Positions 4,602 through 27,870 of a DNA stretch of 44,854 nt are shown here, piece by piece. The stretch comes from Hungatella sp. (lineage in GTDB: Bacteria > Bacillota > Clostridia > Lachnospirales > Lachnospiraceae). The notes under the pieces are model-generated. The model did not search any database. It saw only the letters and a list, made by a program, of their open reading frames with translations, and was not told the DNA's origin. Each line of letters starts with the position of its first letter. Within the stretch, counting starts at the first letter, position 1. The stretch is taken from NCBI GenBank assembly GCA_022796015.1, contig JAAWHU010000023.1, positions 1 to 44,854 of the forward strand, written 5' to 3'. Both the position numbers and the translations under genes were made by a program.

Positions 4602-4641
4602 ATCCATTGTCTCCTTCTTTCTTTTTCAGTACTTCTTAAAG

Positions 4642-4680: not shown

Positions 4681-4731
4681 TATCTTACAGGAAAAGACAT
4701 TTGCACCATGGAAATGAGACGACTTTCCCAA

Positions 4732-9753: not shown

Positions 9754-11127
9754 CTAAAAACTTGTATCCAGACACCTGATATAGGCCCCTGGCGTTTCTG
9801 CAAAGGCTCGATTCCGCTGCTTTTCAAGTCCTGCCGCCATAACCGTTTCATCCTCCATGGCCCCTCTGATATGAGAGATCATCCTGTCAGGGGCATGGGA
9901 AGGATAGATGGATTCCTCTGCCACATATTCCTGATTATGAAGTGTTCCCTGAAACGCGAATATAAGGTGATTATGCAGAAATGCCTGATACACTGCCGAT
10001 ACGATCTCCGACCCCTTATTGATATCCAAATAATAATCACATGTCTCAAAAAGTTCATCTAAAACATTCATTTTTACCGCCGGATAGAGACTTACATTCT
10101 CATAAGACCCTATGCTCATCAGTTTTGACGACATTTCCGTAAGGGCAGCAATATGAAAATGCATCTGAGGAAGCGCCTCTATAAGTTTGCGGCAATGTTC
10201 GATGTCATCGGAGTTGGTGCAGATTAACGCCTTAGGCATATGGCTGTTTTCTTTTTTAAAGGGATAGATAAATCCCAGCTTTCCAACGATATCCGGAGAT
10301 GCTCCCAGCTTAAGGAGCTTGTCATAGGAGCTTTGCTTCTGAACCATAATCTTTGACGTGCGGCCGGCTCCTCCCTTGAGGATGATCTGCATGTTGCCGG
10401 GAATCTCATTGTCAACAGGCTCCTGCCAGAACAGCACATCCCTCTTTCCCATGGCAGTGGCAGGAAGGCTCTGAGACACAAAGAAAGGCGTGGACAAGGA
10501 GTTAAAAAAGATACGCTTCTGATCGAAACCTGCCTTTTCCAGAAAATAGCGCACAAACTCTGTCTTGGAAGAGAAAAACCTCACCTTGGGCCCATCATTT
10601 AAAATAATGTTCCGGGTGACAAAATTTTCCATGATGATTTCCTGACCTGTCCCGGAGAAATAGGTCTTATTGACCTTCTGTCCCTTTGCGTTGAAAATGG
10701 TCCTGGCATACAATGCGCCGTACCGGTTGTAGTGGTCGCTGGAACGCACCACCCCCCTTTCATCATACCAGTCCACCACCTTTACCAGACGTCTGTGTCC
10801 TGGCTTTGCATAAAAGATCTTTCCCCTGACTCTGTAAAGGTGGTGAATCTCCCCTCCCCGGTTATTCCCGCTGATCTCCCAGTACTTTGGCACGGTGATC
10901 TGATTAAAATATCTTGGACGCCCCGGTATCCCCTTCACACCCTGAAAGCTGCCGAGAAAAAAACCGTATACCGACATTACGTCCGCCGGAAGAAAGCCAT
11001 CATCCTCAATGACTGCTGCCGGACATTGACAGCCCGCCTGTTCAAAAGAGGCATGAAGATTCTGGCTGTCCTGGGAATAGTCGTCAAAAAGCAGTATTAT
11101 ATCATCTGGTCTATTAAATCCGCCCAT
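9754..11127 (-). CDS. gtfB: Accessory Sec system glycosylation chaperone GtfB
   Basis: This 457-residue protein is the non-catalytic partner of GtfA. In streptococci the GtfA-GtfB complex adds the first GlcNAc to Ser/Thr of serine-rich repeat adhesins in the cytoplasm, with GtfB binding the substrate. The assignment rests on its position directly after gtfA and on sequence: an N-terminal beta-rich region (RYFNQITVPKYWEI, GKIFYAKPGHRRLVKVVDWYDERG, YARTIFNAKGQKVNKTYF) and a C-terminal glycosyltransferase-like half (MPKALICTNSDDIEHCRKLIEALPQMHFHIAALTEMSSKL) that lacks a catalytic EX7E motif. The gene overlaps the end of gtfA by 31 nt, with GGAGG 10 nt before the ATG, which suggests translational coupling. 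It is the last gene of the operon. Confidence 0.88.
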   Translation of the reverse strand: MGGFNRPDDIILLFDDYSQDSQNLHASFEQAGCQCPAAVIEDDGFLPADVMSVYGFFLGSFQGVKGIPGRPRYFNQITVPKYWEISGNNRGGEIHHLYRVRGKIFYAKPGHRRLVKVVDWYDERGVVRSSDHYNRYGALYARTIFNAKGQKVNKTYFSGTGQEIIMENFVTRNIILNDGPKVRFFSSKTEFVRYFLEKAGFDQKRIFFNSLSTPFFVSQSLPATAMGKRDVLFWQEPVDNEIPGNMQIILKGGAGRTSKIMVQKQSSYDKLLKLGASPDIVGKLGFIYPFKKENSHMPKALICTNSDDIEHCRKLIEALPQMHFHIAALTEMSSKLMSIGSYENVSLYPAVKMNVLDELFETCDYYLDINKGSEIVSAVYQAFLHNHLIFAFQGTLHNQEYVAEESIYPSHAPDRMISHIRGAMEDETVMAAGLEKQRNRAFAETPGAYIRCLDTSF

Positions 11128-12596
11128 CTCTTTTCCACCTCCACAGTAAGATAATTCTGAGCCTTTTCATAGGAATGCAGGTGCATGTTCTCTATGTCGG
11201 CTTCTGTAAACAGCCGGATGATACAGGCTGTCAGCTGTTCAACCCTTTCTCTTTTCTCCATCTTGCTATTTACGGCAATCTTGTATCCGTTCTCGTTGTC
11301 GTCGATAAAGTTCTGATTGCCGTAGCGGACGTCAAAGCCGATGATGGGAAGTCCGGATCCTACAGCCTCCATAAGTGTCAGGCCGAATCCCTCACTGGTA
11401 GAACCGGACACATAGGCCTCATAGTTCTTATATACCTCCGTCAGATTCTGCTGCCCCCGAAGCCGCACATAATCCCGGCAGCCGTACTGGTCAATCAGTT
11501 CCGTCAGCCGTTGTTCCTCCCCTCCCTTTCCGTAGATATCCAATGTAATATCCGGTATTCTCTCTTTTGCCGCCGCAACTGCCTCGATAATCCAGTCCAC
11601 ATGTTTTTCACCTGCCAGTCTTGATGCGGTAATCAGGGAATGGGGAGTTCTCCCATTCTGGGGATATTTCAGCTGGTCCAGACTTCCCACAGGGATGGTC
11701 ACAATCCCAGGCGCCGCGCCTATGTAATGCTCAAACTGCTCTTTCAGCAGATCTTTCTGAGCGTCGGTAGCCGTTATGTAGAAGTCTACCCGGTTATGCT
11801 GGGAAAACGCATATTCATAGTAGTTATTCCACAGAATATAGTCCTCATTCGTACTGCCCTCGCTGAAATGATCTGCGTGAATCGGCATGACAATATGGGC
11901 AGAGCCTGCATTCTGCATGATGGACTGCCCGATCCCCGTAGTTCTGTCTACGATGACAATATCCTTCTCTGTCAGGCCAAGGCAGGACACCATATACCCT
12001 ACCAGTTCCTCCTTGGAACACAAAAGTCTGTCGGGAAACTGATACATAACCACATCCCCATCAATGATCTCTTCGTAGGCTGTGGTACCATCCTCGTTGA
12101 AGAACCGGCGCTGATACAGATGAGCCTGCTTGTCAAGAGGTCCGTAATACTCCGAATAAATCCTGCAGTACGTAAAATAATCCTTTCTGATCAGACATCC
12201 TCCTGCAACCATCTCCACCCGGTGAACAAGGTCGCCGGTGTCGTCAACCAGGTAAACCGTATAGTAAATGTTGGTGTCTGTAAAGGTATACTTTGCCTTA
12301 GCGCCATCTCTTGAAAAGGTAAAATTCTTGTTTCCGAAAGTCTTTTGCAGATCACCCAGAGTATAGGACACCGGCGCCGTTTTACAATCCGTAAAAAATG
12401 TGTAGAGCCAGATAATCTCCGAATCCTCAAACCCGATGTTGGCAGTCATATGCTGAATGTTATCTCTCGGAAACATATCCGTAAAGATAAATTTTGCCTC
12501 CCTGCCGATTCTGCGCAGAGCCTTCGCCCTGTAGGCCTGGGCATACTCTACTCCGCTGCTGGCCCAGCCAATTCCCAAATTAAAATTGTAAATCAT
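11097..12596 (-). CDS. gtfA: Accessory Sec system glycosyltransferase GtfA
   Basis: This 499-residue GT4-type glycosyltransferase starts O-GlcNAc modification of the serine-rich repeat protein before export. The N-terminus MIYNFNLGIGWASSGVEYAQAYRAKALRRIG is characteristic of GtfA. It is followed by the beta-meander insert that contacts GtfB. The C-terminal Rossmann half carries RLAGEKHVDWIIEAV and the EX7E signature in SEGFGLTLMEAVGSGLPIIGFD. AGGAGG lies 4 nt before the ATG. The gene begins 8 nt after the secA2 stop and overlaps gtfB. No further glycosyltransferase (Gtf3, Gly or Nss type) is present, so only the core sugar-adding pair is encoded here. Confidence 0.93.
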   Translation of the reverse strand: MIYNFNLGIGWASSGVEYAQAYRAKALRRIGREAKFIFTDMFPRDNIQHMTANIGFEDSEIIWLYTFFTDCKTAPVSYTLGDLQKTFGNKNFTFSRDGAKAKYTFTDTNIYYTVYLVDDTGDLVHRVEMVAGGCLIRKDYFTYCRIYSEYYGPLDKQAHLYQRRFFNEDGTTAYEEIIDGDVVMYQFPDRLLCSKEELVGYMVSCLGLTEKDIVIVDRTTGIGQSIMQNAGSAHIVMPIHADHFSEGSTNEDYILWNNYYEYAFSQHNRVDFYITATDAQKDLLKEQFEHYIGAAPGIVTIPVGSLDQLKYPQNGRTPHSLITASRLAGEKHVDWIIEAVAAAKERIPDITLDIYGKGGEEQRLTELIDQYGCRDYVRLRGQQNLTEVYKNYEAYVSGSTSEGFGLTLMEAVGSGLPIIGFDVRYGNQNFIDDNENGYKIAVNSKMEKRERVEQLTACIIRLFTEADIENMHLHSYEKAQNYLTVEVEKRWADLIDQMI

Positions 12597-12604
12597 ATCT
12601 CCTC

Positions 12605-14941
12605 CTATGGAAGCAAAATGTGAAGCCTGTTGTCTGCATCAATATATAGATTGCTGAGAAGGATATTTCTCATTATATTGTTTAAAATCCGATGCTCCAT
12701 CTTTCGGAATGCTTCCAACGCATCCTTCTGAAACTCAAATACGGGATTTCTCTGGGCAGAGGCCCTTCCCATCACTGCCATCTGCATCTGCCAAAGATAA
12801 TCTACCTGCTCCACCCATGCATCATCAATGGCACTCAGAGCCGCTTTTCGCATAAAATCATTCATGCGCTTTTTGCTTCCTGCTTTCTTCTCCTGTTCTT
12901 TCAACCCCTGCTCTACCCGCCTCATCAGGTATATCTCCACGGCCCTGGGGTCATTAAGGGCAATCCTGCTTTCCTCCTGGTCTACATGATAAGAAATGTG
13001 ATCTAAAATATACCGTCTGAGAGAGGGCATATCCAAAGAACCTTCTCTGGCCAAAAAATCTACAATATTACCTATGGCGATGGTTCTCAGCTTCCTCTTA
13101 TCCATCCCCTCTCCGTCAAGAAGCTGATCTCTGGTGGCATAGATCAATTCCCTCTGCTTCTGCATGACCTGATCGTATTCCATAGCCCGTTTCCTAGAGG
13201 CAACCGCCTGCTCCTCCCCGATTCTCTGGGCATTGTTGATCATCTTTTTCAGCCTGGTTCTGGTAATAAATGCTTTTCCCTCTGCATATTTATCAATGTC
13301 TTTCTCCCGGTTCGCCATAACGATCTCATCCTGGAGAGACACAAAGAAACGGCTGAAACCCGGGTCTCCCTGCCTTCCGGCCCGCCCCCGTGCCTGGCGT
13401 TCCTGCCTTGTGTTGGCCATGCGTCCGATTCCGATGACTGCAAGGCCTCCTAACTCCTTCACCCCTTCTCCCAGGCGAATATCCGTCCCCCTTCCGGCCA
13501 TGGCTGTGGCTACTGTCACCGCATTCATCTGTCCTGCCTCTTTTATAATATCCGCCTCCCAAAATGCATTGTTGGCATTGAGCACATTGTGAGGGATTTT
13601 CTCCTGAACCAGCTGTCTGGATACCGCCTCTGTCTCCCGAATGGTGCTGACTACAATAAGCACCGGCTGCCCTTTTTTATGGACCGTTACCGCCTCCTCA
13701 ATGGCAGCCTGAAACTGCCCGGCAGCATTTTTGTAGTAGGAGTCTTTCCAATCCTTTCTCTGTACGGGGCAGTTGGGCGGAATCACCACCACCTCCGTGT
13801 GATAGACGCTTCTAAGCTCCTCTGCCGCATCTGCTATGGTGCCGCTCATGCCGGACATTTTAGGAAAAAGGAGAAAAAAACTTTGATAGGTAATGGATGC
13901 CACAGAACGGTTCTCCTGGGTTAGCTTCAGCTTTTCCTTTACCTCCAGCGCCTGATGCTGCCCGCCCCGAAGCTTGACTCCCGGCAGCATACGGCCCGAT
14001 CTCCCGTCCAGAAGCTGCAGCTCTCCCCCCGGTGTGATCATATACTCTTTCTCTTTTTTAAACAGAGTATGGGCTCTGAGGGCCAAAACCACGTGCCTGT
14101 TGATCTCAAAAAATTCTTCCCCATAGAAATTGTCAATCTGGAAAAATTTCTCTGCATACTCCACACCTGCCTCCGTGAGCCATACCTTGTTCTCCTCCTT
14201 CTCATAGTCCCGCTCCTCCATGAGGGTAGTGACAAAAAAATCTGCCAGCTCATAGAGATTAGACTGAACCCTGGGCGCCCCGGAGATCACAAGAGGAGTC
14301 TGGGCACTATCCAGAAGGACGGAGTCCGCCTCGTCAATAATCACATAATTAAACGCTCTCATGAACCGTTCCGATGCCGTGGATACCAGATTGTTAAGGA
14401 GATAGTCAAAGCCCAGGACACTGTGGGTGGTATAGACAATATCCGCCCTATAGATCCTCTTTTTCTCCTTGTTGGTCATCTGTACCTCTGGCTTGGAACT
14501 GACCCCTACGGCACAGGTAATTCCCATAAAATCATAGACCTGCCCCATCTCCTGGGCGTCCCTTATTGCCAGATACTCATTGGTGGTTACCAGTATCGTG
14601 CTTTTTCCTGAAAGAGCATTGAGATACAGAGGCAGGGTGGCCGCCAGGGTCTTTCCTTCCCCTGTATTCATCTCCGCCAACATCCCCTTGTGAAGGGCAA
14701 TGCCCCCCAATATCTGCGCGTCATAGGGAAACTTTCCCAACACCCGGCGGTCCGCCTCGCATATGGCTGCAAATGCCTCCGGAAGAAGATCATCAAGGCT
14801 CTCCCCCTGTGTCAGGCGTTCCCTGAACTTGACTGTCAGCCGGGACAGCTCCTTGTCCGGCAGTTCTTCCATCCTCTTCCTGTACCCCTTGACACCATGC
14901 AATAATTTTTTCAGTCCTTTTAGATTTTTAGTCTGTCCCAT
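12605..14941 (-). CDS. secA2: Accessory Sec translocase ATPase SecA2
   Basis: This 778-residue motor ATPase should drive export of the glycosylated adhesin through SecY2. Walker A is MNTGEGKT at residues 91-98, the Walker B/DEAD box is VIIDEADSVLLDSAQTPLVISG, and the second motor domain has AGRGTDIRLGEGVKELGGLAVIG and QARGRAGRQGDPG. It is shorter than housekeeping SecA. The C-terminus ends soon after the helical wing (NLYIDADNRLHILLP) and lacks the CxCxSGxxxxxCH zinc motif that binds SecB/ribosomes, as expected for SecA2 of the SecA2/SecY2 type. The gene overlaps asp3 by 14 nt and is followed 8 nt later by gtfA. Confidence 0.95.
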   Translation of the reverse strand: MGQTKNLKGLKKLLHGVKGYRKRMEELPDKELSRLTVKFRERLTQGESLDDLLPEAFAAICEADRRVLGKFPYDAQILGGIALHKGMLAEMNTGEGKTLAATLPLYLNALSGKSTILVTTNEYLAIRDAQEMGQVYDFMGITCAVGVSSKPEVQMTNKEKKRIYRADIVYTTHSVLGFDYLLNNLVSTASERFMRAFNYVIIDEADSVLLDSAQTPLVISGAPRVQSNLYELADFFVTTLMEERDYEKEENKVWLTEAGVEYAEKFFQIDNFYGEEFFEINRHVVLALRAHTLFKKEKEYMITPGGELQLLDGRSGRMLPGVKLRGGQHQALEVKEKLKLTQENRSVASITYQSFFLLFPKMSGMSGTIADAAEELRSVYHTEVVVIPPNCPVQRKDWKDSYYKNAAGQFQAAIEEAVTVHKKGQPVLIVVSTIRETEAVSRQLVQEKIPHNVLNANNAFWEADIIKEAGQMNAVTVATAMAGRGTDIRLGEGVKELGGLAVIGIGRMANTRQERQARGRAGRQGDPGFSRFFVSLQDEIVMANREKDIDKYAEGKAFITRTRLKKMINNAQRIGEEQAVASRKRAMEYDQVMQKQRELIYATRDQLLDGEGMDKRKLRTIAIGNIVDFLAREGSLDMPSLRRYILDHISYHVDQEESRIALNDPRAVEIYLMRRVEQGLKEQEKKAGSKKRMNDFMRKAALSAIDDAWVEQVDYLWQMQMAVMGRASAQRNPVFEFQKDALEAFRKMEHRILNNIMRNILLSNLYIDADNRLHILLP

Positions 14942-15374
14942 TGGTCAATTCCCGAATCACGATTGAATGAAAATGGAATGCTCTGACTCCACCATTAACC
15001 AGCTGCATACAGTAACTATAGGTTTTAAGAGGGCACCGGAAGCCGGCTGTTTTATCCCTCACTGCAATGCTTCCTGCCTCCTCCCCATATTTGTCATAAA
15101 ACACCAGACGAACCAGGCAGCACTCTGCAGGAGGGGTATCAATGTTGACGATAATCTCATAATCCCCTTCCCCATCGATCATGGGAAGGGCAGGTTCAAT
15201 TTTTTTAATCTGATAATTTGTTTTGGAATACCACTGCCTGATAATGGTTCCCGGAGCCATGAGAGAATTCTTAAATTCCACATGGTCTTTTCGATGACAG
15301 ATGATCTCGGAGCCATACAGGTAGGTATCCGTACAGTATTCATCCCAATAGATGTTCCAGCTTTGTCCTGCCAT
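14928..15374 (-). CDS. asp3: Accessory Sec system protein Asp3
   Basis: This 148-residue small cytoplasmic protein is assigned to the Asp3 family, which joins Asp1 and Asp2 in a complex that binds the adhesin and helps hand it to SecA2. It is mostly beta-stranded (NIYWDEYCTDTYLYGSEIICHRKDHVEFKNSLMAPGTIIRQWYSKTNYQ; YEIIVNIDTPPAECCLVRLVFYDKYGEEAG; HFHSIVIREL), matching the carbohydrate-binding-like fold known for Asp3. The start codon follows the asp2 stop codon directly (TAA-ATG), and the 3' end overlaps secA2 by 14 nt. Family assignment relies on size, fold pattern and locus order. Confidence 0.85.
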   Translation of the reverse strand: MAGQSWNIYWDEYCTDTYLYGSEIICHRKDHVEFKNSLMAPGTIIRQWYSKTNYQIKKIEPALPMIDGEGDYEIIVNIDTPPAECCLVRLVFYDKYGEEAGSIAVRDKTAGFRCPLKTYSYCMQLVNGGVRAFHFHSIVIRELTNGTD

Positions 15375-16889
15375 TTATTTTTTGATCCTTCTGTGAAAAT
15401 CTTCTGTTAGTATTTTTTCAAACTGGCTGGAAAACCAGCTGACAATGCCTCCTGTATTGTCATTGTGCCTGCCGTGGATTCCCTTTCCGTACACCTGAAC
15501 TCCTGCCGAGTGAAGATGGGACAGCAGCATACTGTAAGCAGAGGCATCATAATCATCTTCTATCATGTAAGAGATGATGAACTTAGAAGCACTCCAATCA
15601 GCATGATCGAATTTATCCCAGAATCTGGCGTTTAATTCCTCTATGGCCTCCTGGTTCTCTCTCCTGCACAGATACTTAAGAATATCCAGGGACGTGGGAA
15701 ATCCGCCTGGACGAACCATTTTTTCTCCCGCAGCCACTGTTCCGATACTGGCCAGAGGTTTACCCAGAATCATGGCATGAGGCCCCAGATCACATCCGTA
15801 ATACAGAGCGCCGAAGGTTCCCATGGAAAGTCCTGACAGAATGACCTGATCCCCAGTAAAGCCCAGCTCCTTCATATAACCCCGGATTGCCTCCACAATC
15901 ATTTTCTCATATTCCTCTGAGCCCATGTAGAAGCATCCCCCCTCCAGCCGGGCTTCCGCCACCAGCAAAAAGGGACATCCCATGGACCTCATAAGATTAT
16001 AGCCCTCAAAGCCTTCCCTGGTCTTATACCCGGAAAAATAAACATTGAAAGGCGGCTTCATGTCTCCCGGGTCAAAGTAACAGAACAATTCTTCCCTGTC
16101 CGACGTCACGTACCGCTCCCCTCCAGGCAGAAAATGTCCGTGTCCCCTTCTGGAATACCGGTCATGAAGAGTGATAATCTCCAGTTTTCCTGTTCCTTTT
16201 GCAAAAAGAGAGACAAAAAGATTCCCCCTGGTTCCAGGATTTTCAATTTGAACCATGTGTTCCAGATCTTCCTCGGAAAACTTCCATTTCTTTTGTACAT
16301 TGGAGATGGTTCCTGCGGCAAATAGAGTCACAGAAAGAGAGAGCTCCACATCCTTATCTTTTTTGTATTCCAGCCAAAGATCAAGACACTGCCCCTGTTC
16401 CAGGGGAATATTGTTTCTCCAGAAAACAATCTGATTTTGTTCATTTCCAAAATCCCCTTCCAGACATACGCTGTAGCCGCCCTTCCAGCGGATGCTGCCG
16501 GAAAAATCCCGAACGATTGCCAGATTCCTCAGATTGAATTTCTCCCCGTAGGGTTTGGGAAAATAATTTCTCGCCTCCCAAAGAAGAAATTTCTGAATAT
16601 CCGCCTCCTCCATGTTTTTCCCTTTTCTGCTGTTATACAGCCTTGCCATGTCTCCTTCCATCTTAACGTTTTCGGTCACAAACAAGGTATATGCTTTTGT
16701 TCCCTGATAAAGAAATTCGATCTCCTCACGGGATGGCGTCCTGTCCAGAAAAATAATATCATAGGGTGGATCCGGAACTTCCTCCAATGTCTCCCTGTAT
16801 TGAAAATCCAGAATCTTCGGCAATGTATAGAGCTTTCTCCAATCCCTGTTTCCCAACTGCAATACCCTTATCTTATCCAATCCGATCAA
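15375..16889 (-). CDS. asp2: Accessory Sec system protein Asp2 (alpha/beta hydrolase, putative O-acetyltransferase)
   Basis: This 504-residue protein has an N-terminal beta-rich region and a C-terminal alpha/beta hydrolase-like domain. In Streptococcus gordonii, Asp2 acetylates GlcNAc on the adhesin and is also needed for export. Here the nucleophile elbow is VILSGLSMGTFGALYYG with the serine at residue 355, and a likely catalytic histidine lies in GIHGRHNDNTGG near the end. The N-terminal part carries LQLGNRDWRKLYTLPKILDFQY and a jelly-roll-like stretch. The gene overlaps the end of asp1 by 17 nt and abuts asp3. An intact Ser/His pair suggests the enzyme is active, which is inference. Confidence 0.9.
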   Translation of the reverse strand: MIGLDKIRVLQLGNRDWRKLYTLPKILDFQYRETLEEVPDPPYDIIFLDRTPSREEIEFLYQGTKAYTLFVTENVKMEGDMARLYNSRKGKNMEEADIQKFLLWEARNYFPKPYGEKFNLRNLAIVRDFSGSIRWKGGYSVCLEGDFGNEQNQIVFWRNNIPLEQGQCLDLWLEYKKDKDVELSLSVTLFAAGTISNVQKKWKFSEEDLEHMVQIENPGTRGNLFVSLFAKGTGKLEIITLHDRYSRRGHGHFLPGGERYVTSDREELFCYFDPGDMKPPFNVYFSGYKTREGFEGYNLMRSMGCPFLLVAEARLEGGCFYMGSEEYEKMIVEAIRGYMKELGFTGDQVILSGLSMGTFGALYYGCDLGPHAMILGKPLASIGTVAAGEKMVRPGGFPTSLDILKYLCRRENQEAIEELNARFWDKFDHADWSASKFIISYMIEDDYDASAYSMLLSHLHSAGVQVYGKGIHGRHNDNTGGIVSWFSSQFEKILTEDFHRRIKK

Positions 16890-18408
16890 TAACCTCTTTC
16901 CATCGTTCTATCAATACCTGGGCCGTATATCTTTTGCCGATCTCGTAGGAAGCAATCATGGCGTCATTCCAGTTGGAAAGACCATCAAGATAATAATCCA
17001 GCATCTCCTTTAGTCCCCCCATATCCTGCAGAACCATTCCGTTTTTCCCATGTTCTACAAACTGAGTCTGTGTACACACAATCTGGGGAATCCCTGTGCT
17101 TAAAGCCATGATCTGCAGATACAGCTCAGGAATATCCCCCATATCCACGATGATTTTCTGCTCCCTCATACATCGGCTGACAGACAGTTCATCCACACAC
17201 TGCTCCACCCGAAAAAACTTACTCAGCATCCTATCCGGCTCTTCTGTCTCCAGATATGCCCTGGCCTGTTCCAGAAGCCGGCTCTGCCTGGCCGGACTGC
17301 CGTTGCGGGTAAACAGGTGGATCCGGGCATTGGGGTTAACTAACACATAGGATTCCAGACAGCGTATCAGTCTGCCGAAGGTTTCTTTCTTCAGCCCATC
17401 CGCCGGAACCAGAATTTTTTGGACATTCAGCTGTCTGCTGATGCCGAAATCCGTTCTGGTATCATAGGGCGGTATATCTGTTATATTAGAAAGGGGAATG
17501 CCTGACTGCTTTTTCAGATTTTCCGAGTTTTCCCTGGAATCCGTGACAATATAAGCAGCCTGTCCTATCATTTCCCTATGGTTTAACTTATTGTCCCAAT
17601 GGTATCTGTCTCCAAAAAAAGACAGGATTATGTTTCTCCCCTTCAGCACCTGTCCCAGAAGACCGGCATGGTGATTGTCCATGGCAGCACAGAAAATATC
17701 CCTTCTGTCTGTCAATTCCAGATAGGAGGCGAAAACCTCACTGATAACCTGATCTATGGAATCATAACAGGTTCTGGAAAAAGGAAGGAGCGTTTCAAAT
17801 CCCGCCCCTGCAAGAAGGTAGGAGGATGCCTTGGGATTGACCTCCACATGTCCGTCCTGTTCATAGCATCTTAGCTTCCAGGTTCCGTTTTCCATAAGAT
17901 AATCCTGAAAAAGAGGTTTTTCGTCCTCATAGACAATGGTGCTGGAGATAAAGCCCCTGTCATCATAGATATTGCGGCGGTAGACCTTCCCGCCTCTGTA
18001 AATGCTGATCTCAATGGGATTTCCGTCTTCCCCGAACTCAACCTGGGCATACTTCTCCCCCTTCTGCAAAGCCACCACCACAAATGGGGTATACTGAAAT
18101 TCCGTGTGGGGAGGCCATTTCATATTGTGAAAAGACAGCACTACTGCTTTTTTTCTCCTGACCTCCTGAATGGTGTCAAAACACGACCAATAGGGAGCGC
18201 GGTACACTCCCTGTCTGTGAAGAAAATGTCTGAAATTAGGGGAAAAGCCCAGAAGCAGGATTTGATAGGGATATGCTCTGCTGCGGTGAAAAAGCTGCAC
18301 CTGTTTTACCGTGTCGTCAAATTCCGTATACATGCGCCGCACACGCCAGTACTGCTCATTCTCGCACCATTTACCCTGCTGATACCATGCCGGTATAAAG
18401 TGTAACAT
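16873..18408 (-). CDS. asp1: Accessory Sec system protein Asp1
   Basis: This 511-residue member of the Asp1 family resembles a glycosyltransferase-B fold without activity and forms a complex with Asp2 and Asp3. The N-terminus MLHFIPAWYQQGKWCENEQYWRVRR is typical of the family. The middle is beta-rich (YRRNIYDDRGFISSTIVYEDEKPLFQDYL), and the C-terminal half is Rossmann-like, with VDMGDIPELYLQIMALSTGIPQIVCTQTQFVEHGKNG, which resembles a GT-B donor site. It starts 8 nt after secY2 and overlaps asp2. The run of overlaps points to one transcript for secY2 through gtfB. Confidence 0.92.
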   Translation of the reverse strand: MLHFIPAWYQQGKWCENEQYWRVRRMYTEFDDTVKQVQLFHRSRAYPYQILLLGFSPNFRHFLHRQGVYRAPYWSCFDTIQEVRRKKAVVLSFHNMKWPPHTEFQYTPFVVVALQKGEKYAQVEFGEDGNPIEISIYRGGKVYRRNIYDDRGFISSTIVYEDEKPLFQDYLMENGTWKLRCYEQDGHVEVNPKASSYLLAGAGFETLLPFSRTCYDSIDQVISEVFASYLELTDRRDIFCAAMDNHHAGLLGQVLKGRNIILSFFGDRYHWDNKLNHREMIGQAAYIVTDSRENSENLKKQSGIPLSNITDIPPYDTRTDFGISRQLNVQKILVPADGLKKETFGRLIRCLESYVLVNPNARIHLFTRNGSPARQSRLLEQARAYLETEEPDRMLSKFFRVEQCVDELSVSRCMREQKIIVDMGDIPELYLQIMALSTGIPQIVCTQTQFVEHGKNGMVLQDMGGLKEMLDYYLDGLSNWNDAMIASYEIGKRYTAQVLIERWKEVIDRIG

Positions 18409-18416
18409 TGCTCCTC

Positions 18417-19625
18417 CTAAATAAATGGTTTATACGAGTCATAACTTTTAACTGCCAGAAATTCTTGATATAGATTGTACCAAATACTTGTCATCATCAT
18501 AATGGAAGCAGGAAACATAACCAGGCTTTTGTCCACGGTTCCTTTCAGCTGCAAAAACATAGGAATCCCCAGACATATGCTCATTACCGTGGCGCTTGCA
18601 AAACCAATTCTGCAGATCTGGCCGGACAGATACCGTCTGGTATCACGCCCCGCATGAAGGTTCATAATGCTGTCTCCGCTTTTTAAAAACTGATCCGCAA
18701 TATCACTCGGGCTAATGAAGATCATAGAAAAACTAATCGTAAGCACATAGAGAATCAAAATATACACCACAATTCCAAGTGGTTTTATGAGAGTCAGGTT
18801 CTCCTTCCACCATGCCACATCGGTATTGTCCGGGAAAAGAAGGCTGAGTCCCAGAACCAGAAACTGGGGAACCATGAAAAAGGCTGTGGAGAACATGACA
18901 GGCATGACTCCCATAGGGTTCATCTTAATGGCAAGATAATTCTTGTCCCCATAGATATTGTGTATGGAAATACGCTGAACCGGAATCCGTTTTTCCCCGC
19001 TCTCCATGACAATCATAATTACCATAACGACTGCGGCTATTCCCAAAGGCAGGGCCAGTCTGGACAAAGAATTGCGGCTTAAGGTTCCCAGGATTCCATC
19101 CAGAATATTCACATAGATCAATGCGGTCTGCCCTCCAAGGCCGTATCTCTTATTGCGGGAAGACAGCCACAAAATTATCATCACTCCTGTCACCATCTCT
19201 ATGGCGGCCATTCCTTTCAGAAAGGGAACTGCGGCTGCCGAAACCTGGCGGAACTTTAATTCATGGACATGAAGGACGGCCTGAACAGAAGCAAAAGCCA
19301 GTGTCATGCCCATCTGCATCCTGCCCGTCTTTCCGGGTGATATTCTGACTCTGGAGCCCGCATTTTTACAGGATACCATAATCTGAACAAGAATAGAGGA
19401 GATCATGTAGGGCGATATTCCCAGGGCAAACAAGGAATACCGGTTCACATCTCCGCTGATAGTCTGAACAAGCAGGATCTGGGCATTGCCGGACATATCT
19501 GCATAAGCCGATATATCAACGCCGTAAAGAGGCACTGCTCTCCCTGCCAGATACACTAAAATAATGATGGCAGTGTACAATAGCTTGTCTGTGATTAACC
19601 TGCCTCTTTTTTCTGTCTGTCCCAT
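18417..19625 (-). CDS. secY2: Accessory Sec translocase channel SecY2
   Basis: This 402-residue integral membrane protein forms the accessory translocation pore. It has about ten hydrophobic segments in the SecY arrangement: KLLYTAIIILVYLAGRAVPLYGVD as helix 1, the plug region, FALGISPYMISSILVQIM as helix 2, the cytoplasmic loop ISIHNIYGDKNYLAIKMNPMGVMPVMFSTAFFMVPQFLVLGLSL, and FISPSDIADQFLKSGDSIMNLHAG before the last helices. It is shorter than housekeeping SecY (about 430) and more divergent, as is normal for SecY2. No SecE2/SecG2 (Asp4/Asp5) genes are found in the locus, so it may use the general SecE/SecG or work alone. It lies 348 nt downstream of the adhesin gene and 8 nt upstream of asp1. 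Confidence 0.93.
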   Translation of the reverse strand: MGQTEKRGRLITDKLLYTAIIILVYLAGRAVPLYGVDISAYADMSGNAQILLVQTISGDVNRYSLFALGISPYMISSILVQIMVSCKNAGSRVRISPGKTGRMQMGMTLAFASVQAVLHVHELKFRQVSAAAVPFLKGMAAIEMVTGVMIILWLSSRNKRYGLGGQTALIYVNILDGILGTLSRNSLSRLALPLGIAAVVMVIMIVMESGEKRIPVQRISIHNIYGDKNYLAIKMNPMGVMPVMFSTAFFMVPQFLVLGLSLLFPDNTDVAWWKENLTLIKPLGIVVYILILYVLTISFSMIFISPSDIADQFLKSGDSIMNLHAGRDTRRYLSGQICRIGFASATVMSICLGIPMFLQLKGTVDKSLVMFPASIMMMTSIWYNLYQEFLAVKSYDSYKPFI

Positions 19626-19644
19626 GTCTTTCTCCTGGACTAAA

Positions 19645-19757
19645 ACTAGTGACTGCTGCGGTTTAACCTTGTGGGGTCAACCTGCAGCCAGTATGCCATC
19701 TGCTTCCTATGGGATAAAACTTCGTAGGATATTTACCTATAGGGAGGCAGTACTAGT
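19645..19757. repeat. ACTAGT-bounded unit next to the palindromic element
   Basis: This 113-nt stretch starts and ends with ACTAGT. Its ends are roughly inverted: ACTAGT-G-ACTGC on the left and GCAGT-ACTAGT on the right. It contains CCTATGGG and CCTATAGG. It shares its right boundary with the 167-nt palindrome. ACTAGTGAC at 19645 recurs at 19913, so the two units together are flanked by a 9-bp direct repeat. I see no gene in it. Confidence 0.45.
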
Positions 19758-19918
19758 GTGCTGACACGTTCATTTTCAGCTAAATGACGCCGAATGAATT
19801 TTCAGTCTGCAAGGCGGCTGAACGAGGCGATGCGGTGGCATCGTTGAGTAAGGCCAACGCGGCAGATGGAAATTCAGGCAAGTCATTTGGCGAAATGTGA
19901 ACGTGTCAGTATACTAGT
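19752..19918. repeat. 167-nt imperfect palindrome with 21-bp terminal inverted repeats (MITE-like)
   Basis: The terminal 21 nt at 19752-19772 and 19898-19918 are inverted copies with two mismatches, each containing CTGACACGTTCA. Similarity continues inward: CTAAATGAC pairs with GTCATTTGG, the GAATTTTC/GAAATTC region pairs, and GGCGATGC/GCATCGTT closes a short loop GGTG. The whole element can fold as one long hairpin. It has no coding capacity. The form resembles a non-autonomous miniature element or a large REP-type repeat. It lies between the adhesin gene and secY2. Confidence 0.75.
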
Positions 19919-19945
19919 GACCACCTCTTAAAAGAGATGGCCACT
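19916..19945. terminator. Hairpin just downstream of the adhesin gene
   Basis: AGTGACCACCTCTT (19916-19929) pairs with AAGAGATGGCCACT (19932-19945) across a 2-nt loop, with two G-U-type mismatches. It lies 29 nt past the adhesin stop on the minus strand. There is no U-tract, so it could reduce read-through into secY2 or protect the 3' end rather than act as a full terminator. Confidence 0.45.
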
Positions 19946-19973
19946 AATGTCATGGTAAGGTATTTCTGAAGTT

Positions 19974-22900
19974 TTATTTATTGCCTTTGTCGGTTACGGC
20001 TTCCTTCTCGGCAAAAATTCCTTTTTTGTTCTTTTTGTCGTAAGCTGTCTTGCCTGTAGCCGCAGCGATAATGGGAACAATCCACCACCAGAAGCCGTGG
20101 GCACTGCTTTCTTCTCCTGTGGCCTGATCTGCCATCTCCATGGCGGCAAGGGGAACTTTCTCGTCCTCAACTACGGCAAGGACTTCTTTCTCATCCATTA
20201 CTGCAAGGGGAACCTCTTCATCCTCAATCTTCGCCAAGATGGAACCGTCATGTGTCTCTGCTCTTCCGAGACTTCCATTATCCTCCTGAATGTCCGCAGA
20301 ATGAGAAACCGTCGGTGCCGGTTCTGGGTTTTCATACCGTCTTGCTGTAACAAGGGGTACTTCCCTGTCTTCAATGGTTACCAGATTCTCTGGAGTCTCC
20401 TCTACAGGAGCCTCTTCTAACGGAGTATCCTCATCGGGAACTTCTGTTGTGGTAGTATCGCCTGCCGGCTCGTTGTCACCTGCCGGAGTGTCATATCCTC
20501 CGTCATCGTCTCCTGTACCACCTCCGGTGCCTCCTCCTGGGGTGGTATCTGGAGCAGAAGTACTTTCGCTGGCTGACGTGCTTTCGCTGGCGCTTTCACT
20601 TTCTGAAGTTGAAGTACTGGTGGATTCGCTGGCATCTGTACTGGTGCTGGCGGATTCACTGGCAACGGCACTCTCAGACTCGCTGGCAGCTGTGCTGGTG
20701 CTGGCAGATTCACTGGAAGCAATGCTCTCAGACTCGCTGGCAGCTGTGCTGGTGCTGGCAGATTCGCTGGCGGCTGTGCTCTCGGATTCACTGGCTACAG
20801 TGCTTTCGGACTCACTCTTGGAGGTGCTTGCACTCTCGGATTCGCTCTTAGAGGTACTTGCACTTTCGGATTCGCTCTTGCTGGTGCTTGCACTCTCGGA
20901 TTCGCTCTTGCTGGTGCTTGCACTTTCAGATTCGCTCTTGGAGGTACTTGCACTTTCGGATTCACTCTTGCTGGTGCTTGCGCTCTCGGATTCACTCTTA
21001 CTGGTGCTTGCACTCTCAGACTCGCTCTTGGAGGTGCTTGCGCTCTCGGACTCACTCTTGGAGGTACTTGCGCTCTCGGATTCACTCTTGGAGGTACTTG
21101 CACTCTCGGATTCGCTCTTGCTGGTGCTTGCACTTTCAGATTCGCTCTTGGAGGTACTTGCACTTTCGGATTCACTCTTGCTGATGCTTGCACTCTCGGA
21201 TTCACTCTTGCTGGTGCTTGCACTTTCAGATTCACTCTTGCTGGTGCTTGCACTCTCGGATTCACTCTTACTGGTGCTTGCACTCTCGGATTCACTCTTG
21301 CTGGTGCTTGCACTCTCAGATTCACTCTTGGAGGTACTTGCACTCTCAGACTCACTCTTGGAGGTACTTGCACTCTCAGATTCACTCTTGCTGGTGCTTG
21401 CACTTTCAGATTCGCTCTTGCTGGTGCTTGCACTCTCAGACTCACTCTTGGAGGTGCTTGCACTCTCAGATTCACTCTTGGAAGTACTTGCACTCTCGGA
21501 TTCACTCTTGGAGGTACTTGCGCTCTCAGATTCACTCTTGCTGGTACTTGCACTTTCAGACTCACTCTTGGAGGTACTTGCACTCTCGCTCACAGAAGCG
21601 CTTATACTCGCAGACTCAAAACTGCTGGTACTTCTCGACGTACTTTCAGCATCACTAATACTCAATGATTCACTGGTGCTTTCAGAAATTACTGCACTTT
21701 CAGATGCACTGGCCTCCGCAGAAATACTTGCAGAATTACTTTGAGCTTCTGAAATACTTTGAGATGTTCTCTCAGATTCAGAAATATTCTCTGACAATTC
21801 CTCTGAGACTCGTGCACTTTCGCTTTCACTATCAACGATACTTTGACTAAGACTTTCTGCTTCTTTCTTTGAATCACTCTCACTGGCCTCCAGAGACTCT
21901 CTTTTTGCCTCTGACTCCGCATCACTTACAGAAGCACTGTTTTCAATATACTCTGACAAAGATGAGGAATTATACTCACTGATTTCCGAATTTCTTGAAG
22001 ACTCAGAGTTATATGTACTTTCTGCTAAACTCTGCTGCTCCTCGGCGGAAGTAAGTTCACTGCGCTTATTATGGTAATCATCTGCGCCGGAATTAAATTC
22101 TGCCTCTTCAAAATATTTGTCACCTTTTGATCCATATGTAAATTTGCCGTTTTCATCGCCTTCAGCAAACTTTGGTCTGCCGAATAAATCATATCCACTA
22201 AATACTTTTCTAGAAATAGTGATACCTGCCACCTCGCTAAATCGGTCAGTATCAATCCTCTCTCCATTAGCATTTACAAGAACATAATCAAAATATGCTG
22301 TCTGAGCTTTACCATGACTATCTGTATATTCTACTTTTACATAGTTTCCGTCACCTTTACCCTGAACCCATTTGCTGGTTTCAATGGACTTAACCCCATC
22401 CTCCTGATACAATTTATACTGAATCAGCTGATTGGCCAAATCATTTGCAGCACTCCAGTATTCCTCTGTTGCTTTCTCCCCTTGTACATCTCCAACCTTA
22501 TCCTGCACATCAGAAATCTTGTCCAGCAATTCCTCAAGGAAATCATCCTGATCAAACGCTTCCGAAGTACTTTCAAGCACACTCTGTGCAATAGAAACAG
22601 ATTCGCTTGTAGATAACAATTCATTGGAAGCCAAAACTGCACTGTCAGACAAGCTTGCCTTTTCTGACTCCAAAGCGTCTGAAGCAGACTCTGACAATGA
22701 TGCCTCTGACAATGCCGCATCTGATAGCGCCGCGCTGGCAGAATCTGAAGCGGACACTGCACTTTCGGATACAGATTCCAGCTCTGTGCTGGCGGATGCT
22801 GACTCTTCAGCTATGCTGGCGGACTCGCTGGCTGCCGACTCACTGGCGGACTCACTGGCTGCACTCATGCTGTCTTCTTCTAAGGATGCCGATGTGCTTG

Positions 22901-23954
22901 CAGCATCTGACTCGGACATTATCTCCGAAGTCTGTTCTTTCACAGACTCACTGGCAGACTCTGATTCTTCCGTAAGACTGCCCAGTTCGGATTCTGCCGA
23001 TCCGCTGGCAGAATCTGACATGGATGCTAATTCTTCCTCTGTCAAAGATACGGTATCGCTGCCTGATACACCTGGAGCCAAAGGAATCTCACCCTCTGGT
23101 ATTGCGGATGTGTTCTTGTCACCGGTCTCCTGTCCATTTTCTGGTATTTCTGTTTTATCCTGACTGTCAGCGGGCTTTTCCTCAGACTCAGGAGAATCGG
23201 CCGGTTCTTCTGCCTCTGGCTCCTCTTCCGCCCCATCTGTTTCGTCAGTCACCGGTTCACCGGTTTCTGTTTCGTCTGTTACCGGCTCATCTACCTCCGG
23301 TTTCTCAGTTTCTGTCTCGTCTGTTACCGGCTCATCTACCTCCGGTTTCTCGGTTTCTGTCTCGTCTGTTACCGGCTCATCTACCTCCGGTTTCTCGGTT
23401 TCTGTCTCGTCTGTTACCGGCTCATCTGCCTCCGGTTTCTCGGTTTCTGTCTCGTCTGTTACCGGCTCATCTGCCTCTGGTTTCTCGGTTTCTGTCTCGT
23501 CTGTTACCGGCTCATCTGCCTCCGGTTCGCCGGTTTCTGTCTCATCCGTTACTGGCTCATCTGCCTCCGGTTCGCCGGTTTCTATCTCATCCGTTACCGG
23601 CTCATCTGCCTCCGGTTCGCCGGTTTCTGTCTCATCCGTTACTGGCTCATCTACCTCTGGTTCACTGGTTTCTGTCTCATCGGCCACCGGTTCATTCACG
23701 TCTGGTTCGTCCGCTTCCGTCTCATCTGTTACCGGTTCCTCTGCCTCTGGCTCATCCACCACCGGTTCGTCTACCACTTCCTCGTTGGTTTCCGGCTCTT
23801 CCATATCATCTTCTACAACAATTTCTTCGCTCTCATTCTGACTGTCAAGTTCGGCCGCATATACCACATCCAGATCCGAAAATACTGCCGAACCACCGAT
23901 CACCGTACCGGCTGCCAGAGCACCTTTTAATAAATTATTAACCTTTTTCCTCAT
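19974..23954 (-). CDS. Serine-rich repeat surface glycoprotein (accessory Sec substrate)
   Basis: This 1326-residue predicted adhesin is exported by the adjacent accessory Sec system. Domains in order: a signal peptide (about 1-34, with a glycine-containing core GALAAGTVIGG and possible cleavage near VYAA); an acidic Pro/Thr/Glu region with nine 15-residue repeats at 97-231 (GEPEADEPVTDETET type); a first Ser/Ala-rich stretch (about 310-465); a non-repetitive domain (about 466-640, from DQDDFLEELLDKISDV to YHNKRSELTSAEEQQ) that I do not recognise; a second serine-rich region (about 640-1115) including about 26 copies of SKSESESAST; a Gly/Asp/Pro linker; EDEEVPLA-like repeats; and HGFWWWIVPIIAAATGK with a basic tail. 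There is no KxYKxGKxW signal and no LPxTG. AAAGGAG lies 7 nt before the ATG. The hydrophobic C-terminus is only about 14 residues long. Confidence 0.93.
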   Translation of the reverse strand: MRKKVNNLLKGALAAGTVIGGSAVFSDLDVVYAAELDSQNESEEIVVEDDMEEPETNEEVVDEPVVDEPEAEEPVTDETEADEPDVNEPVADETETSEPEVDEPVTDETETGEPEADEPVTDEIETGEPEADEPVTDETETGEPEADEPVTDETETEKPEADEPVTDETETEKPEADEPVTDETETEKPEVDEPVTDETETEKPEVDEPVTDETETEKPEVDEPVTDETETGEPVTDETDGAEEEPEAEEPADSPESEEKPADSQDKTEIPENGQETGDKNTSAIPEGEIPLAPGVSGSDTVSLTEEELASMSDSASGSAESELGSLTEESESASESVKEQTSEIMSESDAASTSASLEEDSMSAASESASESAASESASIAEESASASTELESVSESAVSASDSASAALSDAALSEASLSESASDALESEKASLSDSAVLASNELLSTSESVSIAQSVLESTSEAFDQDDFLEELLDKISDVQDKVGDVQGEKATEEYWSAANDLANQLIQYKLYQEDGVKSIETSKWVQGKGDGNYVKVEYTDSHGKAQTAYFDYVLVNANGERIDTDRFSEVAGITISRKVFSGYDLFGRPKFAEGDENGKFTYGSKGDKYFEEAEFNSGADDYHNKRSELTSAEEQQSLAESTYNSESSRNSEISEYNSSSLSEYIENSASVSDAESEAKRESLEASESDSKKEAESLSQSIVDSESESARVSEELSENISESERTSQSISEAQSNSASISAEASASESAVISESTSESLSISDAESTSRSTSSFESASISASVSESASTSKSESESASTSKSESESASTSKSESESASTSKSESESASTSKSESESASTSKSESESASTSKSESESASTSKSESESASTSKSESESASTSKSESESASTSKSESESASTSKSESESASTSKSESESASISKSESESASTSKSESESASTSKSESESASTSKSESESASTSKSESESASTSKSESESASTSKSESESASTSKSESESASTSKSESESASTSKSESESASTSKSESESASTSKSESESASTSKSESESTVASESESTAASESASTSTAASESESIASSESASTSTAASESESAVASESASTSTDASESTSTSTSESESASESTSASESTSAPDTTPGGGTGGGTGDDDGGYDTPAGDNEPAGDTTTTEVPDEDTPLEEAPVEETPENLVTIEDREVPLVTARRYENPEPAPTVSHSADIQEDNGSLGRAETHDGSILAKIEDEEVPLAVMDEKEVLAVVEDEKVPLAAMEMADQATGEESSAHGFWWWIVPIIAAATGKTAYDKKNKKGIFAEKEAVTDKGNK
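20800..21590 (-). repeat. About 26 tandem 30-bp repeats encoding SKSESESAST
   Basis: A 30-bp period runs through this stretch of the adhesin gene. Nearly all copies encode SKSESESAST. Copies differ mainly at silent positions (for example CTCGGA/TTCAGA, GAGGT/CTGGT) and one copy reads ISK. The serines and threonines are the expected O-glycosylation sites. Repeat number is likely to vary between strains by recombination or slippage. Confidence 0.95.
23262..23666 (-). repeat. Nine tandem 45-bp repeats encoding acidic 15-mers
   Basis: Nine in-frame copies encode (S/G/E)(E/K)PE(A/V)DEPVTDETET at residues 97-231. The copies fall into three blocks (GEPEA, EKPEA, EKPEV), which suggests stepwise duplication. 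The region is strongly acidic and probably extended; degenerate copies flank it on both sides. Confidence 0.95.
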
Positions 23955-24046
23955 CCTTTATCTCCTTTGCCCTTCTAGCTCTTCCCAACACGTCCCGGAA
24001 CTCCTTATGATGCTCAGAAGTCCTCTTTTTAGTTTTCTCAAATCAT

Positions 24047-24052
24047 ATTATA
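24047..24052 (-). promoter_or_regulatory. Extended -10 promoter for the adhesin gene
   Basis: The minus strand reads TGCTATAAT with TATAAT at 24047-24052. This predicts transcription starting about 85 nt upstream of the ATG. No good -35 stands at 17 nt, so the extended -10 must carry the promoter or an activator is needed. Confidence 0.5.
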
Positions 24053-24107: not shown

Positions 24108-24174
24108 ATAGGTGATTGCGAAAATCAAAGCCAGGAAAAGATTCAGCCAATTTTTAACTTTCGCAATCACCTAT
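24108..24174. repeat. REP-like palindrome with perfect 16-bp arms
   Basis: ATAGGTGATTGCGAAA (24108-24123) is the exact inverse of TTTCGCAATCACCTAT (24159-24174). The 35-nt loop contains AAGCCAGG and ATTCAGCCAATTTTTAA. A related single arm occurs at 4642-4680. It could be a dispersed repeat or a structured terminator for either divergent unit's antisense transcript. Confidence 0.7.
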
Positions 24175-26603: not shown

Positions 26604-27870
26604 TCATTTTTTGTACTCTTCCAGCTCTTGGGTCATATCTGCATAATACCAGAGCTTCCCCTTCCCGGAGCTTTTGGCATAAGCCTCTTCCACCCGCTGA
26701 AATATGGTGCTGCAGTATTCCTTTTCCGTCTTTACCAGCATTAAGATAAAGTGTCTGTTTCCGTATCTGGTATAGGCATCTCCTGTCCTGAGGGAACTTC
26801 CGATGGCGGTTTTTAGAATCTGCATCTGCTCTTGAAGGTTTATCTGTCTCGGCGCATCTCTTCCGTCCTGACTCAAGGTAAGGAACATCAGCATGGCGCT
26901 GAAATCATTTCTGGCCTTTGCCCTGACTACCAGATGGCAATAGTCTACAAAACTGGGATAGGTGCAGTAATATGCCCCTTCCACCTTCTCTTCCTTAAAA
27001 ATGGCCTTTCTGATGTCATTCTTCCTGTCCATAAACGCCTTATCCATCCTCCGCCAGCTGCTCAGCTCGCTGGTATCCATTTGGTGGTTTTCATCCAACA
27101 GCTGAAGCTCTTCAAAGCAGCTCTGCAGCTCTGCCGTCGGAGGACTCCCCATCTCTCTGGCATACAATTCCATAGTGTCATTATAAACTTCTAAAGCTTC
27201 CTTATAGCGATATACCTCCAGATTACATCGAATCAGGTAGGTCTGCCAGTTTTCAAAAGGATAGATTGCCGCCGCTCTGGAATAGAGAAGAATCCTGTTT
27301 TTATAGTCTCTTGTTTTCAAAAACTCCTTTTCCAGTTCCCATATGGTGTCCACATAAAGTTCTTTAAAATAATTGCTCTTATGAAAAAACCAGGTATCCG
27401 ACTGATTGGCAGGGAGCAGTTCTCCCGTATATTGGGCATTGGCTCTGGAAAAAAGCTCAACACGTTCTACCCCCCCCCTCACAGGATTTGGCCTCCCGAA
27501 CCAGTTCTTCAAACTCCTTTGTATCAATCTGCAGAGGCACCTGGCATTGGAAACTGCACATTCTGTCGTTAATCGTCACATATTCATCATCAGGAAGGCC
27601 GCCGGAGATCAGCTGTCCTTTCAGACGATAGATCAGATTGTTCAGGTTCTTGTTGCCGTTGGCCGTATCGGCTTTTCCGTTCCACCCATACAGATTATCT
27701 ATGAGTTCTGTTTTTGAGATTCCTCCCTGTGAGGACAGCAGCAGCATCTGAAGAAGGCGGAGGGACTTGGAACTTCCCGCCTTGTGAAAGGTTATGGCTT
27801 CACCGCCATAATACATGGCAAATCCTCCAAGCATCCGGATCTGCAGTACCTTTGAAGACAATTTCATCAC
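26604..27870 (-). pseudogene. BTAD (SARP-like) regulator, frameshifted at a G9 tract
   Basis: Two frames make one regulator of about 420 residues. The first (27870 to 27457) encodes a winged-helix OmpR-type DNA-binding domain (LQIRMLGGFAMYYGGEAITF, SSKSLRLLQMLLLSSQGGISKTELIDNLYG) and runs to a stop just after a run of nine Gs (27470-27478). The other frame continues at once with ERVELFSRANAQYTGELLPANQSDTWF and the TPR-like bacterial transcriptional activator domain (EALEVYNDTMELYAREMGSPPTAELQSCFEEL). Removing one G joins them as CEGGVERVELF. The C-terminal 110 residues look like a degenerate GGDEF domain (LRTGDAYTRYGNRHFILML). It starts at the GTG at 27870 or the ATG at 27867, 12 nt after the hydrolase gene. 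The shift may be phase variation, a fixed mutation or a sequencing error. Confidence 0.85.

Follow-up and report, generated by a model that had tools for sequence, protein, structure and literature searches.

We identified a complete accessory Sec locus for a serine-rich repeat (SRR) glycoprotein in a Clostridia genome, that of a Hungatella species (Lachnospiraceae; assembly GCA_022796015.1). The locus lies on contig JAAWHU010000023.1, which was analysed in its entirety (44,854 nucleotides; hereafter the window) and is one of the 163 contigs of a genome that is 88.6% complete and 2.6% contaminated. Accessory Sec glycoproteins have been studied as adhesins of streptococci, staphylococci and lactobacilli. 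Here, eight open minus-strand reading frames (ORFs) between positions 9754 and 23954 encode, in order, a serine-rich adhesin that is the predicted export substrate (19974..23954; 1326 amino acids), the accessory channel SecY2 (18417..19625; 402), Asp1 (16873..18408; 511), Asp2 (15375..16889; 504, with a TTG start), Asp3 (14928..15374; 148), the motor ATPase SecA2 (12605..14941; 778), the O-linked N-acetylglucosamine (O-GlcNAc) transferase subunit GtfA (11097..12596; 499) and the glycosylation chaperone GtfB (9754..11127; 457). An earlier note on this DNA had placed all core parts on one strand, as we find, within 9754..24052, a span that contains the locus but ends 98 bases too far, as the adhesin begins at 23954. 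We think it fairly probable that this Clostridia-type locus glycosylates, acetylates and exports the adjoining adhesin, and that a Trp/Lys-rich C-terminal membrane segment of the adhesin replaces sortase.

From secY2 to gtfB, neighbouring genes overlap or are separated by at most 8 bases, an operon-like arrangement, and the open adhesin ORF adjoins secY2 at a distance of 348 bases upstream. Seven of the eight genes match accessory Sec models and six exceed their cut-offs in NCBIfam (bits/cut-off): SecA2 (972.7/930; TIGR03714), Asp1 (405.5/136.1), Asp2 (503.2/210.75), Asp3 (123.1/67.25), GtfA (715.5/574.6; TIGR02918) and GtfB (507.9/338.3; TIGR02919). These include four of the proteins (Asp1, Asp2, Asp3 and SecA2) for which the earlier note had proposed a check with family models, and a failure of the Asp1–3 models, which it had named as a refutation, did not occur. 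Pfam models matched Asp1, Asp2, Asp3, GtfA, SecA and SecY, with Asp1–3 above the cut-offs; GtfB had no match in Pfam, nor did either of the two genes downstream of gtfB match a family in NCBIfam or Pfam. In some relatives, glycosyltransferase-like genes lie downstream, or several kilobases separate secA2 from gtfA.

The residues expected of active enzymes are present. Asp2, a predicted O-acetyltransferase, can be aligned to two solved chains (6oyc_B and 6lnw_B) and has S355, D445 and H475, each exactly seven positions before Ser362, Asp452 and His482, the catalytic triad of Streptococcus gordonii Asp2 (PMC5578698). All ten of the loci used for comparison, including four from Bacilli, share the triad; the Asp2 of L146 has an alignment gap immediately past the triad aspartate. 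The same ten loci conserve the Walker A motif (TGEGKT) and the Walker B Asp-Glu of SecA2, as well as the EX7E motif of GtfA (E402). The intact Walker motifs, Asp2 serine and EX7E motif reported previously are borne out.

The arrangement is that of the S. gordonii gspB/hsa–secY2A2 locus, in which an SRR adhesin gene, secY2, asp1–3, secA2, gtfA and gtfB occur in the same order (PMC5076819, PMC5578698). The streptococcal order that had been claimed thus holds for the core, but not for gly, nss, asp4 and asp5 of S. gordonii, which are absent from the window locus. The sole SecE match of the genome lies outside the locus; SecG was not searched for. Two staphylococcal plasmid loci, L144 (Staphylococcus pasteuri) and L147 (Staphylococcus chromogenes), also share the order from secY2 through asp1, asp2, asp3, secA2 and gtfA to gtfB, and asp4 and asp5 are likewise unannotated in them, in a source collection whose gene table is incomplete. 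Their proteins are 35–36% (Asp2) and 41% (SecA2) identical to those of the window, and an ORF annotated as LPXTG adjoins their secY2. SecA2-only systems of the Clostridioides difficile and Bacillus anthracis type resemble the window in having a second SecA in a Firmicute (C. difficile was compared by name only), but the window locus also has SecY2 and Asp1–3. Moreover, its SecA2 scores best with TIGR03714, whereas the B. anthracis-type model (647.1/1085) and the Listeria model (505.2/1100) stay below their cut-offs.

In our trees, SecA2 and SecY2 of the window do not cluster with the housekeeping SecA or SecY of the genus, an outcome that the earlier note would have regarded as counter-evidence. 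In the SecY tree (32 rows), eight housekeeping SecY proteins of the genus are separated from SecY2 (support 100/100), and the window SecY2 groups with those of two same-genus genomes, G003 and G005 (97/91), within a 20-row accessory branch (97/97) that also includes Olsenella and Holdemanella. Two long-branch SecY2 rows from Bacilli join the housekeeping side weakly (67/61), a placement flagged as doubtful. In the SecA tree (33 rows, quick method), eight housekeeping SecA proteins of the genus stand apart (support 100), and 21 SecA2 from accessory Sec loci form a single branch (support 100). One of these eight, the housekeeping SecA of the genome itself (locus L001; an 858-amino-acid frame), is 37.6% identical to the window SecA2. 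No housekeeping secY was found in the assembly, although SecA and SecE are present and such a gene was detected in 18 of the genus's 26 genomes; this is likely an assembly gap. Another genome of the genus (G016) has, on its contig C10, an additional and more distant SecY together with an additional SecA, which may reflect contamination or another system.

To survey relatives, one genome per species was scanned, and an Asp2 relative is encoded at 229 places. The best 80 of the 229, together with six same-genus loci and the window and minus five duplicates, give 82 distinct loci. Those 80 are mostly from Lachnospiraceae, with others from Oscillospiraceae, Eubacteriaceae, Holdemanella porci and one Actinomycetote, Olsenella porci. 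Of 71 distinct loci with all five genes, 68 preserve the order secY2–asp1–asp2–asp3–secA2, and of 63 with all seven, 59 preserve the seven-gene order including gtfA and gtfB. Among 61 genomes searched, Asp1 occurs in 5 of the 26 from the genus (the window's own included) and in none of 35 others, and across the family it occurs in 13 of 397 evenly drawn genomes, in 13 of 334 genera.

SecA2 and SecY2 from these accessory loci branch separately from the Bacilli versions, and in the Asp2 tree the accessory Sec loci are also apart from two staphylococcal rows. The closest relatives are same-genus and other Lachnospiraceae loci (58–72% identity for SecY2, Asp2 and SecA2), versus 35–41% for Asp2 and SecA2 of the Bacilli loci compared. 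We reject a lone transfer into Clostridia on account of the separate SecA2 and SecY2 branches. The trees, which had been suggested as a way to distinguish vertical from transferred origin, resolve a Clostridia-type branch, within which the window copy may be of either origin. Both G003 (L011 and L012) and G005 (L013 and L014) have two loci of different lineages, one window-like (SecY2 58–62% identical) and the other distant (37%). The SecY2 of Olsenella porci (L072) falls inside the Clostridia branch beside that of Pseudoramibacter porci (L092; 100/95), a pairing that suggests transfer between phyla.

The machine is known; its Clostridia branch is without a description in the literature examined, and its substrate is a variant. 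The accounts examined, in the parts available, place the complete accessory Sec system in Bacilli only. For example, a 2019 survey covering genomes of commensals mentions no group other than Lactobacillales in the portion available (PMC6973325), and a metagenome paper on chronic obstructive pulmonary disease terms Asp1–3 Streptococcus-specific (PMC7676259). We recognised no account of accessory Sec in Lachnospiraceae among the papers listed by full-text literature searches, most subscription journals being outside their reach. Databases already contain such loci: the genes are named by NCBI models, and there is a serine-rich protein model, NF033849 (ser_rich_anae_1; 70.4/650 bits), with a name that hints at anaerobes.

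The adhesin has the SRR1–non-repeat region–SRR2 layout of classical serine-rich repeat proteins (SRRPs). On the minus strand, a short signal peptide (approximately residues 1–34; 23853..23954) is followed by an acidic Glu/Thr/Pro repeat region built on a 45-bp unit (residues 35–285; 23100..23852; Asp plus Glu fraction 0.45), SRR1 (residues 286–486; 22497..23099; Ser 0.29), a central non-repeat domain that is a candidate binding region (residues 487–654; 21993..22496; Ser 0.10), SRR2 (residues 655–1170; 20445..21992; Ser 0.42) and a C-terminal tail. SRR2 holds 26 copies of a 30-bp unit at 20806–21588; Ser repeats in such assemblies may be collapsed. Classical SRRPs have an Ala/Ser/Thr-rich AST stretch right after the signal peptide (PMC6973325), in which these residues make up 30–50%. 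In the window adhesin their fraction is 0.10 and the acidic stretch stands there instead, unlike in S. gordonii. Across 21 adhesins it is at least 0.30 in 10, a count in which the signal end was set wrongly for L046 and a little off for L081. The N terminus scores 19.1 bits with the SRR-adhesin model TIGR04224, below the cut-off of 25.

The 168-residue central domain has no Pfam match. Iterated profiles recovered it as ten stretches in nine proteins, including the window adhesin, P0121 and the Olsenella porci adhesin, and the same profile also matches the adhesins of L076 and L087 and a protein of L204 (67.9 bits), none of which was used in building it. AlphaFold2 predicts, from nine rows, a long helix, strands and a closing helix (predicted local distance difference test score 73.7, predicted template modelling score 0.77), with no clear match among solved folds in the PDB.

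The signal peptide is short, yet it retains the glycines that matter for accessory export in S. gordonii. Classical SRRP signal peptides have about 90 residues, and 55–101 in the 2019 survey (PMC6973325), whereas the window adhesin has about 34, and 23954 is the first in-frame start, with no upstream start possible. Within the hydrophobic core, G16, G20 and G21 have the spacing of G75, G79 and G80 of GspB, the joint substitution of which reroutes GspB to the general Sec pathway (PMC5578698). Every one of the 21 adhesins whose signal peptide could be read has GxxxG in its signal core, and 17 have GxxxGG. These 21 comprise 20 beside loci and P0121, of unknown context, and include the near-copies L106 and L109; four of 25 initial rows were dropped (L071 and L076 as non-adhesins, L088 and L099 because no signal peptide follows their called start). 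In a control set of 55 ORFs that are signal-like but not Ser-rich, from the same and a few further loci, none has GxxxGG and four have GxxxG, one of the four being the L114 accessory Sec adhesin, which the set contains. Regular expressions misplaced some signal ends elsewhere; the GxxxG count does not come from those runs.

At the other end, most of these adhesins lack a sortase-type motif. The window tail (residues 1240–1326; 19977..20237, minus strand) has two VPLA motifs and then FWWWIVPIIAAATGKTAYDKKNKKG, and regular expressions found no LPXTG or other sortase motif in it, in contrast to S. gordonii. Tail classes were assigned by regular expressions to 60 adhesins from the 71 distinct loci with secY2: 5 are sortase-type, 24 are of the WW type seen in the window, 13 are H, 9 are Ser-rich ends (N) and 9 are other (O), a class that includes WW-like tails with other spacing (L066 and L101). 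Among cultured relatives, strain 1XD42-76 (L110) has the WW type, and Schaedlerella arabinosiphila DSM 106076 (L049) and Acetatifactor muris DSM 23669 (L062) have the H type. Thus, 55 of 60 lack a sortase-type motif and have Trp-rich or other hydrophobic, basic tails or a Ser-rich end. Eleven of the 71 loci stayed unclassified; by eye, L073 and L085 have an adhesin-like tail without PxTG, and in L076 and L087 the adhesin lies elsewhere in the locus. On the Asp2 tree, the five tail classes together require 12 changes, compared with 32.1 when shuffled (none of 200 shuffles was as low); N-type tails form a single branch (support 100) and the H type needs two changes. Of the 23 tail-model matches in the genus, 20 were inspected, and in these the WW type was confined to accessory Sec adhesins apart from a single other protein, in G005.

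Sortase is available in the window's genome, which has five sortase matches above the cut-off and two other surface proteins with PxTGD ends (VPRTGD and LPKTGD), yet the adhesin has no such motif. G003 and G005 each have one accessory Sec adhesin with LPKMGD and a second with a WW-type tail. With one copy carrying a sortase-type motif and the other not, the question of anchoring could be tested within one cell, should such a species be cultured.

The mechanism that we propose borrows its steps from work in S. gordonii, and what we observe here are the sequence features to which those steps would correspond. GtfA and GtfB, judged by their families, would add O-GlcNAc to Ser and Thr residues of SRR1 and SRR2 in the cytoplasm. 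Asp2, with its catalytic residues in place, would O-acetylate the sugar during export and, together with Asp1 and Asp3, may help to hand the protein to SecA2. By analogy with GspB, the GxxxGG core would steer the short signal peptide to SecA2/SecY2 rather than to SecA/SecY. SecA2 would then drive the preprotein through SecY2, with the tail remaining in the membrane. The central domain, positioned between the Ser-rich stretches, may bind a ligand. Export, glycosylation and adhesion are thus all predicted properties of the adhesin, and retention by its tail is a putative one.

For a broader reading the odds seem to us about even: Clostridia would hold a long-standing branch of their own, with SRR glycoproteins largely off sortase, entry through a short GxxxGG signal peptide, a family of conserved tails (Trp-rich, H-type or Ser-rich) acting as an anchor or as a new sorting signal, and a shared adhesive domain. 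If so, part of the Lachnospiraceae and their neighbours, a large group of gut anaerobes, would display sugar-coated adhesins with fewer parts and no sortase step. A long signal peptide, an AST stretch and LPxTG would then characterise the Bacilli branch without being required by the machine, of which the glycine spacing would be the conserved part.

Several observations weigh against export by this machinery followed by retention through the tail. SecY2 is under the cut-offs of both SecY2 models (269.3/353 and 239.9/249.6 bits). These are nevertheless its best models, and the SecY model reaches only 160.9/253.6, so that the model check proposed for SecY2 comes out in its favour by rank but not by score; the NCBI cut-off is a naming threshold and is outside the definition of an accessory Sec system. 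An element between the adhesin gene and secY2 that resembles a miniature inverted-repeat transposable element (MITE) may uncouple their transcription. Neither the tail nor the central domain is specific to accessory Sec, as a similar tail of the WW type and the same domain also occur in L204 (3422–7978; G005, contig C165), in a coiled-coil-like, non-Ser-rich protein of 1518 amino acids whose signal peptide is ordinary. The WW class alone requires 11 changes on the Asp2 tree (19.0 when shuffled), and the 'other' class barely clusters (7 changes; 25 of 500 shuffles as low). The Asp2 rows nearest to the window belong to L037 (WW), L039 (sortase), L042 (WW) and L011 (sortase), and with both kinds mixed around the window, tails have seemingly been exchanged as well as inherited. 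The hydrophobic part of the window tail is short and weak (best 17-residue Kyte–Doolittle mean 1.10; N-type ends reach 0.22–1.04) and may therefore be unstable as a membrane anchor. The tail also scores just below the cut-off of a 'doubled motif LPXTG anchor' model (41.2/48 bits), and past its hydrophobic part K63, Y66, D67, K68 and K72 are invariant in eight aligned rows, residues that could be recognized by some enzyme.

Those invariant residues leave an outside chance that the tail is a new sorting signal, in which the WW segment and the GKTAYDKK stretch after it are recognized and cut by an enzyme that attaches the adhesin covalently to the envelope. Known sorting signals have a similar layout, with a motif, a hydrophobic stretch and a basic tail, and the clustering of tail classes on the Asp2 tree would also fit. 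However, no recurring candidate enzyme was noticed in the loci, although no systematic search was made, the H, N and O tails differ from this one, and a membrane anchor is simpler. Ordinary anchoring by one of the five sortases, acting on a degenerate motif such as QATGE in the expected position, seems to us unlikely. The near-threshold score with the LPXTG anchor model would be explained, same-genus accessory Sec adhesins do end in LPKMGD, and many other surface proteins in the genus carry a doubled VPLA ahead of a PxTG-type motif, but the corresponding place is not conserved among aligned WW-type tails and the regular expressions find no sortase motif there. SRRPs that lack LPXTG are known; SssP1 of Streptococcus suis is one such SRR protein, likewise beside an accessory Sec locus (PMC6973325). 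Anchorless SRRPs of lactobacilli and streptococci have been taken as possible pseudogenes (PMC6973325), and the window adhesin could similarly have lost its anchor through decay and be merely secreted. We rate this as more improbable still: the reported cases are single strains, partly taken as pseudogenes, in the portion of that survey available, whereas here the motif is missing from 55 of 60 classified adhesins, most of which share a few recurrent replacement tails, and the ORFs of the window locus are open.

The number of contigs, the incompleteness and the contamination of the assembly would allow a Bacilli locus to have been misplaced by assembly or binning, an explanation to which we give almost no credence. 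The locus is internal to one contig with ordinary genes on either side, its nearest relatives are of the same genus and family rather than Bacilli, and the trees count against it. The setting among housekeeping genes that had been noted before agrees with UvrB, FeoB, LigA and QueA, recognized by eye on one side.

Searches with each flank across the genus's 26 genomes gave matches in 25 and 24 of them (own genome included), but these were scattered, and no common insertion site or clean empty site was seen among them. There is no consistent flanking neighbour in the stretches of 13 relatives, of which 7 are without a match and 6 have one isolated match each. The G+C content is 0.475 for the locus without the adhesin and 0.494 for the remainder. 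Apart from the MITE-like repeat, nothing links the window copy to carriage by a phage or plasmid. Asp2 relatives on 16 plasmids are all from Bacilli and are less than 40% identical. Two records filed as Staphylococcus aureus phages, OR844989.1 (282,636 bp) and OR849872.1 (8,451 bp), encode Asp2, which is probably host DNA.

The MITE-like element, found by repeat search at 19752..19918, is approximately 165 bp long with 37-nucleotide inverted ends (81%). Five more copies (91–166 bp; contigs C139, C107, C102, C50 and C18 of the same genome, G000), three of them at contig ends, and a 27-bp piece occur elsewhere in the genome. A different short repeat at approximately 4629–4720 (80–92 bp, 90–93% identical) occurs at six other places. 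Approximately 150 bases upstream of the adhesin start is a 22-nucleotide inverted repeat (24108..24174; 91%) with a 23-nucleotide spacer.

Some accessory Sec adhesin genes have a BTAD/SARP-type regulator gene upstream. We found it in 7 of 26 loci searched, many of which hold little upstream sequence, and in L014 (the loci are L014, L043, L048, L049, L094, L106, L109 and L110). The window has such a gene 2.6 kb from the adhesin (26604–27870), split over two frames (27457–27870 and 26604–27527), the longer part of which is 67% identical to its counterpart in L043.

Two further loci, L011 (1101–3110; G003) and L206 (33–2050; contig C41 of the window's genome), have a tyrosine recombinase gene followed by inverted repeats, a small gene and a surface protein. 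The repeats are 21 nucleotides long and 259 apart in L011, and 19 nucleotides and 220 apart in L206; the small gene has a weak AP2 match in L011, and its called start in L206 overlaps the repeats. The surface protein is an accessory Sec adhesin in G003 and an LPKTGD protein in the window's genome. To judge from its layout, the recombinase with its inverted repeats looks like a switchable promoter.

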